Positions 47,273 through 49,742 of a stretch of 64,000 nucleotides of DNA are shown piece after piece. Within the stretch, counting starts at the first letter, position 1; each line of letters opens with the position of its first letter. Location: assembly GCF_003992725.1 (NCBI RefSeq), contig NZ_RZNF01000007.1, positions 1 through 64,000 on the forward strand. Direction: 5' to 3'. The DNA comes from Rhodomicrobium lacus (GTDB taxonomy: Bacteria > Pseudomonadota > Alphaproteobacteria > Rhizobiales > Rhodomicrobiaceae). The position numbers and the translations under genes are program-made. The notes under the pieces are model-generated. The model saw nothing but the letters and a program-made list of their open reading frames with translations. It was not told the origin of the DNA and ran no database searches.

Positions 47273-48721
47273 TTAGAGGCTCTCGCCGAAATCCGCGCGG
47301 AACTTGGCGACGAGCTTTTGCTGCCAGTCGGATACCGGCTTCAGCCGCCCGTAGAAGAAGCGCAGGATCTCCGGCTCTTCGACGAAGACAAGCCCGCCGA
47401 TCAGCTTGCGGTTCTGATAGAGCCAGTCGATGCGGTCGATGGCGTAGTCGATCTGCGACCGCGTGAACACGCGGCGCGGCAGGGCGAGGCGCAGCAGTTC
47501 CATGTTCGAGAAGACTTCGCTGCCATCCGGGTTGCGCTGCTCGGACAGGGTGCCGCGTTCCATGCCACGCACGCCCGACGCGATGTAACAGGCCGACGCG
47601 AGCGCGCCAGCGCGATACTCCGCCTGCGGAACGTGATCGAGGAAGCGCATCGCATCGATGTGACAGCCGAGACCGCCGGCCGGCGTGATCACAGGCACGC
47701 CGCGCTTCACGAGTTCGCCCACCATATAGGCGATGAACTGCGGACCCTGGTTGATCATGTCCTCGTCCATCGTCTCTTCGAGACCGACGGTCAGGGCCTC
47801 GATCTCGCGGACCGACATGCCGCCATAGGTGAGGAAGCCTTCATAAAGCGGCACGAGCCCCCGCATGCGCTTGTAAAGGCCCTCGTCGCGGATGCAGATG
47901 CCGCCGCCGCGTACGCAGCCGAGCTTGCGGGCGGAGAAGTAGATGATGTCGCAGAGGTCGGCGACGCGGCGGGTGATTTCGCGGATCGAGAGATCCTTGC
48001 AGGCGTCCTCGCGCTCCTTCAGGAAGTAGAGGTTGTCCGCGAGCAGGCTCGCGTCGAGCACGAGGATCAGGCCGTACTTGTCGCACACACGGCGGACGTC
48101 CGCGAGATTCGCGAGCGAAATCGGCTGGCCGCCGATGAGGTTGGTGCCCGCTTCCATGCGCACGAAGGCGATCTTGTCCGCGCCTTCCTTCTTGACGAGG
48201 GCTTCGAGCGCGCCCGTGTCGATGTCGCCCTTGAACGGGAGATCGCTCGTTACCTCGAGCCCCGCCTTCGTGACAAGCTCTTCCACCACGCCGCCGTTCA
48301 GCACGATGTGCGCCTTCGTGGTCGTGAAATGATAGTTCATCGGCACAATGGCGCCGGGCTTCACGAAGGTCTGGGCGAGGATATTCTCGCAAGCGCGGCC
48401 CTGATGTGCGGGCAGGATGTAGTGCATGCCGAAAAGTTCGCGGAGCTTCGCTTCGAGACGCGTGTAGGTGGCGCTGCCCGCGTAGCTGTCGTCCGCGACC
48501 ATCATGGCGGCGAGTTGCTGGTCGCTCATGGCGTTCACGCCGCTGTCGGTCAGCATGTCCATGAAGACATCGCAGTTCTGCAACAGGAACGTGTTGTTGC
48601 CCGCCTCGTCGATCGCCTTGAGCCGGTCCTCGACCGGCAGGAGATTGAGCTTCTGGACGATGCGGACCTTATGCATCTCTAGCGGAATGCTTTCGCCGCT
48701 GTGGAATTTAATTCTGGGCAC
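47273..48721 (-). CDS. Beta-eliminating lyase, tyrosine phenol-lyase-like (variant active site)
   Basis: This PLP enzyme of about 482 residues belongs to the tryptophanase/tyrosine phenol-lyase family, with family blocks LTDSGVNAMSD, THQGRA-type PAHQGRACENI, GGQPISLANLADVR and EGFLTYGGMSVREIEAL. PLP Lys is Lys266. Residues matching tyrosine phenol-lyase rather than tryptophanase are Thr133 (in HFTTT), Arg389 (in GMERG) and Phe455 (LRFF, where tryptophanase has His). But the usual Lys before the PLP Lys is Arg265, and the Arg at position 217 of tyrosine phenol-lyase is Leu226. GTG at 48721 has GAGG upstream; ATG 48676 is the alternative. Function may therefore differ from phenol release. Confidence 0.85.
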   Translation of the reverse strand: MPRIKFHSGESIPLEMHKVRIVQKLNLLPVEDRLKAIDEAGNNTFLLQNCDVFMDMLTDSGVNAMSDQQLAAMMVADDSYAGSATYTRLEAKLRELFGMHYILPAHQGRACENILAQTFVKPGAIVPMNYHFTTTKAHIVLNGGVVEELVTKAGLEVTSDLPFKGDIDTGALEALVKKEGADKIAFVRMEAGTNLIGGQPISLANLADVRRVCDKYGLILVLDASLLADNLYFLKEREDACKDLSIREITRRVADLCDIIYFSARKLGCVRGGGICIRDEGLYKRMRGLVPLYEGFLTYGGMSVREIEALTVGLEETMDEDMINQGPQFIAYMVGELVKRGVPVITPAGGLGCHIDAMRFLDHVPQAEYRAGALASACYIASGVRGMERGTLSEQRNPDGSEVFSNMELLRLALPRRVFTRSQIDYAIDRIDWLYQNRKLIGGLVFVEEPEILRFFYGRLKPVSDWQQKLVAKFRADFGESL

Positions 48722-48914
48722 GGGGACCTCTTGTGAAATTTTTCGTTGACCCGGCGCAAACGTAACAACCTTTGCCTCGGCAATCCCATGTGGAAATAAG
48801 ACGCGGCGCTTCGACTTTAGCCGGATGCGGGGCATGGTCGTCCGACATGCGCCACGGACCCGAAAATCCGCCCCGCGGGTTCCCTCGACGAATGAAGCTC
48901 CGACGGAGAACCAT

Positions 48915-49742
48915 ATGGCTTCGCGCGAACGCATGATCCGCACCTACGACAAGGCGCTGGCGAGCCCGGGCTATCGCCAGTATTTCGACAACAGCGGATT
49001 CTACAATTTCGGCCTGTGGGACGGGGAGCCTTCCTCGCAGCGCGAGGCAAGCGAAGCGCTGATCGACGAACTCGTGTCGTTGATCGGGCAAGCGAGTGGC
49101 CGGATTCTGGACGTCGCCTGCGGGCCCGGCGCCACCACGCAGAGGCTCTGCCGAACCTATGAGCCGCGCAACGTCACGGCCATCAACATCTCGGACGCGC
49201 AACTCGCCTCGGCGCGCGAACGCGCCCCGGGCTGCACGTTCATCAAAATGGACGCGGCGCATCTCGACTTCCCCGCAGAGAGTTTCGATGCTGTCATGTG
49301 CGTCGAGGCAGCTTTCCACTTCAGCACGCGCCAGTCTTTTCTGCGAGAGGCCGCGCGCGTGCTGAAACCCGGCGGAACGCTCGTCATGACCGACATGCTG
49401 TTTCGCGGATTCATGAAGCCCATCGGCAATTTCGGGCAGGTGCCGCCCGAAAATTTCATGCGCGACCTCGATGAATATCGGCGGCGAATGGAGAAAGCCG
49501 GGTTTGTGAATATCGAGGTGAAGGATGCAACGCATGCATGTCTCGGCGGCTTCCGCCGCCACCTCTCTCGCTGGCCGGCGGAGGAACGGCGAAAGCGGCA
49601 TATGTCCTTCGGGCAATCGGTCGTGGCAGGGGTGGTGAGCCGCTCCATCGCGCGATACTTCGCGACGGTATGCAGAACCTATGTCATTGCCGCCGCGACA
49701 AAGCCGGGCCTGGCGGACGAACGGCGATTGCGCGCCGCCTGA
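48915..49742 (+). CDS. SAM-dependent class I methyltransferase
   Basis: This 275-residue protein has motif I ILDVACGPGATTQRL, NISDAQLASAR, motif II FDAVMCVEAAFHF and AARVLKPGGTLVMTD, which is typical of Methyltransf_11-type small-molecule methyltransferases. The pattern around FGLWDGEPSSQREASEALID resembles methyltransferases acting on tocopherol, sterol or natural-product phenols or indoles, judged by resemblance only. ATG at 48915 has GGAG upstream. It is divergent from the lyase with less than 200 bases between, and it is followed by an amidase. Confidence 0.88.
   Translation: MASRERMIRTYDKALASPGYRQYFDNSGFYNFGLWDGEPSSQREASEALIDELVSLIGQASGRILDVACGPGATTQRLCRTYEPRNVTAINISDAQLASARERAPGCTFIKMDAAHLDFPAESFDAVMCVEAAFHFSTRQSFLREAARVLKPGGTLVMTDMLFRGFMKPIGNFGQVPPENFMRDLDEYRRRMEKAGFVNIEVKDATHACLGGFRRHLSRWPAEERRKRHMSFGQSVVAGVVSRSIARYFATVCRTYVIAAATKPGLADERRLRAA

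Follow-up and report, generated by a model that had tools for sequence, protein, structure and literature searches.

A divergent subfamily of tyrosine phenol-lyase homologues, found in Rhodomicrobium lacus and across several phyla, may be tyrosine-forming rather than tyrosine-degrading

We examined a 64,000-nucleotide stretch of Rhodomicrobium lacus DNA (contig NZ_RZNF01000007.1, positions 1 to 64,000 of the forward strand; referred to here as the window) and identified in it, at 47273–48721 on the minus strand, a gene for a 482-residue PLP enzyme of the tyrosine phenol-lyase (TPL)/tryptophanase family, which belongs to a divergent and widespread subfamily and is not a one-off. In some Clostridia and Halanaerobiales the gene of this subfamily is preceded by a T-box leader with a tyrosine specifier, and the subfamily may form tyrosine instead of degrading it. 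Judging from the sequences, we regard it as a good possibility, a little short of probable, that the enzyme represents a third deep branch of the TPL/tryptophanase family, carried mostly as a stand-alone gene across phyla and supplying L-tyrosine from phenol and serine (or from pyruvate and ammonia). The assignment of phenol and serine as the substrates, and of an effect to each of the substitutions described below, is speculative.

The coding sequence starts with GTG at 48721 and ends with TAG at 47275–47273, the strand being a point that the earlier note on this DNA did not give. In the 3.88 Mb host genome the gene looks monocistronic. An SDR gene follows it after about 100 bp, and a methyltransferase gene (48897–49742) is divergent from it; this methyltransferase gene also adjoins the subfamily gene in Rhodomicrobium udaipurense (L061) and is not a general partner; R. 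udaipurense and Rhodomicrobium sp. Az07 were the same-genus relatives in the comparison. Elsewhere in the window, at 71–2468, a ParA-like ATPase and a phage-type-integrase-like protein (named by eye) possibly mark the edge of a mobile island.

By its score, its type I fold and its PLP lysine and aspartate, the encoded protein is a member of the beta-eliminating lyase family. It passed PF01212 (173 bits, cut-off 27) and the NF009709/PRK13238 'tryptophanase' model (605.8 bits, cut-off 285), the name of which is a loose umbrella. However, it fell below the equivalog cut-off of TPL (EC 4.1.99.2; PDB 2ez1, 2ycn and 1c7g), with 434 bits against the 720.7 required by TIGR02618, and missed by far those of the tryptophanase TnaA (tryptophan indole-lyase, TIL; EC 4.1.99.1), with 348.7 bits against 825.8 for TIGR02617 and 391.6 against 750 for NF053783. 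The protein has 40% identity with C. freundii TPL, the fold of which it shares over the whole length, and 35% with E. coli TnaA, which is of the same family and fold. Its AlphaFold2 model (mean pLDDT 85.2) matched TPL 2ycn with a Z of 49.8 and an rmsd of 1.9 Å over 451 residues.

Residue equivalences were read from the alignment to C. freundii TPL (2ez1), all codons being on the minus strand. The earlier note had described a TPL-type enzyme in which two active-site residues are changed, and the alignment bore this out at each position: Leu226 (codon at 48044–48046) stands at Arg217 of TPL, near the PLP-contacting Asp223 (D214 in TPL), and Arg265 (47927–47929) at Lys256, immediately before Lys266 (47924–47926), which corresponds to the PLP Schiff-base lysine Lys257. 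In TPL, we take Arg217 to touch the PLP ring oxygen and Lys256 to lie on the phosphate side. The three residues that had been called TPL-type aligned likewise, Thr133 (48323–48325) with T124, Arg389 (47555–47557) with R381 and Phe455 (47357–47359) with F448, so that the window protein lacks the corresponding tryptophanase markers Asp137, Ile396 and His463.

Six changes came in addition to those already described, namely E69D, D258L, N262R together with an adjacent one-residue deletion (Arg271, 47909–47911), M288F (Phe296 in the window protein, as in tryptophanase), H343L and F346H, the last two being the ends of a subfamily-specific change at Leu351–His354 (47660–47671; His343 to Phe346 in TPL). 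On the other hand, the PLP-binding Lys, Asp, Asn and Arg404 are common to the subfamily and TPL, as are Tyr71, Thr124, Met379, Arg381, Phe448 and Phe449. A passage of PMC5805759 gives five positions that discriminate TPL from TIL, of which four are TPL-type in the window protein (T133, M387, R389 and F455) and one is TIL-type (M288F). The residues of the subfamily, as well as its regulation, do not suggest tryptophan cleavage. As for the monovalent-cation site, presumably built in TPL from the Glu69 side chain and the Gly52 and Asn262 carbonyls, G52 is kept, and the other two positions carry E69D and N262R with the deletion, as read from the alignment, since the metal is invisible in the model.

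To describe the subfamily we used 82 rows, comprising the window protein, the order-mate L017 and the best 80 loci of named genomes from a contig scan, 70–95% identical to the window protein, with 40 other TPL/tryptophanase-type homologues as comparators. Leu217 and Arg256 (TPL numbering) were present in all 82 subfamily rows and in none of the 40 others; likewise, each of the eight changes was found in 82/82 and 0/40, except M288F, which 33 of the 40 comparators share. The TPL-type pocket (T124/M379/R381/F448/F449) was retained in all 82. In a sample of 391 Clostridia genomes, 29 had a member at 59–75% identity, whereas all other homologues were at 44% or less. Leu217 and Arg256 were again found in 29/29, down to 59% identity; five of these members carry D258F, and one carries N262K. 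Because the two residues are fixed in 82/82 rows against 0/40, and in these 29 further Clostridia members, the substitutions are not due to chance. The comparators all keep Arg217 and Lys256, save the very divergent L060 (genome G861), a third family copy in its genome with His at 217 and Asn at 256, which is possibly inactive, judging by these residues.

In a maximum-likelihood tree of 84 rows, 43 of them from the subfamily (unrooted, with midpoint rooting for drawing only), the subfamily formed a single clade outside TPL and TnaA with 100/100 support and a stem of 1.88 changes per site, compared with 0.18 on the TPL side and 0.59 on the tryptophanase/TnaA side. The suggestion that the enzyme comes from a divergent subfamily is thus upheld by the clade, its long stem, the identity gap in Clostridia and the missed TPL and TnaA equivalog cut-offs.

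Some Proteobacteria members (Rhodoblastus, Pararhodospirillum) are nested among Firmicutes in the tree, which implies transfer. Hosts among the named loci include the purple phototrophs Rhodomicrobium, Rhodobacter, Rhodovulum, Rhodopseudomonas, Rhodoblastus and Pararhodospirillum, in addition to Thauera, Aromatoleum, Azonexus, Brachymonas and anaerobic or facultative Firmicutes. The gene is rare in Alphaproteobacteria: 5/199 order-mates have it, of which four, counting the own genome, are of the own genus, and among 385 class members it was found only in the own genome. Two metagenome-assembled genomes (MAGs), labelled Phycisphaerales (L068) and Clostridia (L086), carry members 80% and 77% identical to the window protein, respectively; the genes upstream of L068 are the same as in the Thauera loci, and its contig may be mis-binned. 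On the Rhodobacter sp. CZR27 plasmid NZ_CP023549.1 (232892–234337), a member divergent from an Rrf2-family regulator is annotated as 'tryptophanase', a public name that is probably misleading.

Perhaps the enzyme has the ordinary TPL function, splitting tyrosine into phenol, pyruvate and ammonia, with a drifted active site, compensated substitutions and T-boxes that are local recruitments in Clostridia. Every phenol-pocket marker save M288 is kept, the fold match to TPL is close and the patchy, single-gene distribution resembles that of a catabolic accessory gene, all of which would agree with a plain lyase. However, residues that are invariant in the 40 canonical comparators (L060 aside) are uniformly changed, the TPL equivalog cut-off is missed, and a mean column identity of 80% over 47 members from several phyla is not what drift leaves behind. 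Considering also the leaders described next, in which the regulatory sign is opposite in 12 loci, we think this explanation unlikely: a plain lyase fits the pocket, but it does not fit the T-box.

Rfam T-box leaders were identified directly upstream of the subfamily gene, on the same strand, in 12 Clostridia/Halanaerobiales loci (L086, L107, L111, L122, L129, L131, L134, L139, L142, L147, L148 and L161), the score of L161 being exactly at the Rfam gathering cut-off, while L162 showed the T-box hallmark only and stayed below the gathering score. For the hallmark, upstream sequence was scanned over at most 800 bases in all 80 named loci and at most 1200 bases in L142–L171; the Rfam search took in 29 of these 80 loci and 20 of the 29 Clostridia members. 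T-boxes stand before the gene in a minority of loci, and the hallmark scan of the named loci revealed none in Proteobacteria or Bacilli. The leaders occur at several places in the tree (L107/L111/L134/L142/L148; L122/L139; L161; L162), and were therefore gained or kept more than once.

The specifier is UAC (Tyr) in 12 of the 13 T-boxes, or 11 of the 12 Rfam leaders, as read from covariance alignments and the specifier-loop pattern and, for L142, L147, L148, L161 and L162, by eye from the sequence. L122 and L139 have a one-base spacer after GAA in the specifier loop; in most other T-boxes UAC comes directly after GAA and is followed by a purine, the distance to the lower helix being unchanged. 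For L086 the covariance alignment sets the triplet one base off (ACG), and UAC was read by comparison with close relatives. The bulge is UGGU throughout, which suits A73 tRNAs such as tRNA-Tyr. The sole T-box before a subfamily gene that does not read Tyr is that of L131 (9721–9941), with UGC or GCA. Cysteine as the amino acid sensed there (the UGC reading) is not favoured, since the UGGU bulge expects an A73 tRNA and tRNA-Cys has U73; alanine (GCA) is the alternative.

No T-box was detected upstream of the 40 canonical homologues of the same Clostridia sample, either by hallmark (0/40) or by Rfam (0/40); these control regions consisted of 39 that were fetched, one of them just 438 bases long, and L171. 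One chance hallmark match among the controls, in L173 at -843, lay inside coding-like sequence. By hallmark, the Clostridia sample gave 6/27 for the subfamily against 0/40 for canonical homologues (p=0.003), which became 5/26 against 0/40 (p=0.007) without the centre genome, picked after its T-box was seen, and 4/26 against 0/40 (p=0.02) when Rfam matches only were counted without that genome, kinship of the sequences being uncorrected in all three.

T-boxes turn genes on when the amino acid is scarce, which is the opposite of TPL, induced by tyrosine; therefore, the enzyme probably supplies tyrosine in the T-box-bearing bacteria, as far as their regulation tells. Where it can be read, the regulatory sign of the subfamily is that of a tyrosine supplier. 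The earlier note had suggested that there may be another substrate or another reaction, of which the reaction is backed by the tyrosine T-boxes (12 loci against 0/40 canonical homologues), whereas the substrate may still be tyrosine/phenol.

These leaders accord with the passages of PMC2494555 on T-box targets, which name tRNA ligation, biosynthesis and transport of the amino acid concerned and state that specifier codons agree with verified function. The same passages describe a Tyr T-box governing the Phe-to-Tyr hydroxylase of the B. cereus group, phenylalanine-4-hydroxylase, which is likewise a non-standard tyrosine-forming enzyme under such a leader and is unrelated to the subfamily. For the catabolic TPL, a passage of PMC1173090 reports TyrR as the activator in Erwinia and Citrobacter. 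No paper on this subfamily or its T-boxes was found in the literature searched, most subscription papers lying outside its scope; in the accessible parts of three papers, the T-box regulon paper PMC3766115 has no passage on tyrosine, the T-box passage of PMC7461572 concerns tryptophan synthase, and the TIL structure paper PMC11301627 has nothing on residues of the Arg217/Lys256 type.

The TPL/tryptophanase family is promiscuous, and the enzyme could instead act, as a lyase or by beta-replacement, on some other beta-substituted alanine such as an S- or O-linked derivative of cysteine or serine, in which case the tyrosine T-box would belong to a regulon not understood. Besides that promiscuity, the non-tyrosine specifier of L131 would suit such a role, and so would the fold of the thiocysteine lyase (SH) domains of the leinamycin/guangnanmycin synthases (PDB 9cen), distant relatives from the same Pfam family with a Z of 35.4 and 25% identity. 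However, the hydroxyphenyl pocket is invariant in the subfamily, whereas Arg381 is missing in the SH domains, according to a passage of PMC3870968, and the tyrosine specifier in 12/13 T-boxes also speaks against it. We consider this reading quite unlikely. The intact TPL-type phenol pocket rather suggests that the enzyme may still work on tyrosine/phenol, with the net reaction running the other way, and not on an unrelated compound, as far as pocket residues can tell.

An all-against-all BLAST of regions up to ±10 kb around the 80 loci and the window gene yielded no conserved operon partner. Mixed ABC ATPases were the commonest neighbour family (20 loci, at varied positions), and an arsM-like gene (named by eye) in five Rhodopseudomonas loci was a local feature. 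A DAHP synthase gene follows the subfamily gene in two of 81 loci, from two unrelated lineages: it starts 61 bp downstream in L122, a Bacillota MAG (NF006421, TIGR01361), and 35 bp downstream in L075, a gammaproteobacterial MAG (class II, TIGR01358). Roughly 0.046 such genes would be expected among 81 downstream neighbours, assuming two per 3500 genes. The two cases were spotted by eye in the neighbour lists and then confirmed, the family models having been run on part of the neighbours and those listed for L142–L168 having been read by eye only. These neighbours point to aromatic amino acid synthesis. In L116, L121 and L124 (Bacillota and Fusobacteria MAGs with common neighbours), cobalamin riboswitches lie divergently beside the subfamily gene, joined in L121 and L124 by a divergent BtuF-type transport block.

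We searched the host genomes for the standard tyrosine route. TyrA (PF02153) passed its cut-off in 21 of the 24 subfamily genome handles examined, own genome included (G004 and G919 being one genome); in most hosts, therefore, tyrosine does not come from this enzyme alone, and replacement of a missing TyrA was rejected as a general explanation. Among 45 genomes, TyrA was below cut-off in 5/29 with the subfamily (G927, G930, G933, G1069 and G952) and in 0/16 others, which is not a significant association (p=0.14), and its absence was not significantly tied to the T-box in the independent set (1/5 with a T-box, 1/21 without). PheA (PF00800) was missing in 7/29 subfamily genomes against 0/16 without the subfamily and, within the former, in 6/8 with a T-box against 1/21 without; minus the three genomes that prompted the idea, the counts were 3/5 against 1/21 (p=0.014).

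Chorismate synthase was kept in G927, G930 and G1069 and absent in G933 and G1035. The genomes of L111, L139 and L147 combine a chorismate synthase and a tyrosine T-box on the subfamily gene with PheA and TyrA that are not above cut-off. For the TyrA and PheA absences, MAG incompleteness is a real concern, except in G927, which is an isolate genome (Caloramator quimbayensis). Strains of this kind would need a tyrosine source other than prephenate. A second T-box was seen in L147 (1133–1369, minus strand), just downstream of the subfamily gene and ahead of an ABC-type substrate-binding protein; read by eye, it probably has the specifier UUC (Phe). Together, the two T-boxes may point to a locus for Tyr/Phe acquisition in this genome (G1069), which is without a PheA or TyrA match.

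Tyrosine could also be formed by an aminotransferase derived from a TPL ancestor, acting on 4-hydroxyphenylpyruvate and an amino donor, with Thr133 and Arg389 reading the para-hydroxyl. Such an enzyme accounts for the tyrosine T-box, the DAHP synthase neighbour and the kept hydroxyl-binding residues. However, the genomes of L111, L139 and L147 have no TyrA above cut-off to make 4-hydroxyphenylpyruvate, the complete lyase machinery including Tyr80 is retained, and no reason is given for the anaerobe-rich, patchy distribution. We therefore judge it improbable. With pocket and lyase machinery kept and the gene on at tyrosine scarcity, the simplest reading is that tyrosine is made by reverse TPL or from serine.

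TPL can make tyrosine in vitro, and from the clade and its tyrosine T-box context we infer the reaction to be of this kind. In the mechanism we propose, PLP on Lys266 would form an aminoacrylate from L-serine, or from pyruvate and ammonia, and phenol would sit in the retained TPL pocket (Phe45, Phe132, Thr133, Met387, Arg389, Phe455 and Phe456). With Tyr80 as the putative acid/base, phenol would add to the aminoacrylate and tyrosine would be released, TPL thus being run as a synthase. Loss of the arginine beside the PLP ring, together with the remodelled K256/N262/H343 region, would move the balance away from cleavage and towards synthesis, and a built-in arginine may stand in for the monovalent cation. 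The route would salvage phenol in a way comparable to the rescue of indole by tryptophan synthase. The persistence of phenol in anoxic habitats is in keeping with the hosts of the subfamily.

It is possible, if on the doubtful side, that this is a dedicated, horizontally spread tyrosine synthase of anaerobes and purple bacteria, salvaging phenol with serine and switched on by uncharged tRNA-Tyr in Clostridia. For the Rhodomicrobium host, a role in tyrosine supply would be an extrapolation by homology, the T-box evidence coming from Firmicutes. In R. capsulatus, a passage of PMC5359404 reports that rcc00516 'tpl', which probably belongs to the subfamily (L084, L085), is activated 2.4-fold by RegA in aerobic minimal, not rich, medium; this neither supports nor refutes tyrosine supply.

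The subfamily offers a natural experiment on the roles of the PLP-neighbouring Arg and Lys of TPL. If the proposed role is true, one widespread branch of a family known for the breakdown of aromatic amino acids would build such an amino acid, and the genomes that now count as positive for 'tryptophanase' or 'tyrosine phenol-lyase' would be given a wrong score for indole or phenol production. There would then be a tyrosine route that bypasses prephenate, by which strains without TyrA and PheA would use phenol from their neighbours, and the subfamily would provide a ready-evolved synthase for tyrosine analogues.
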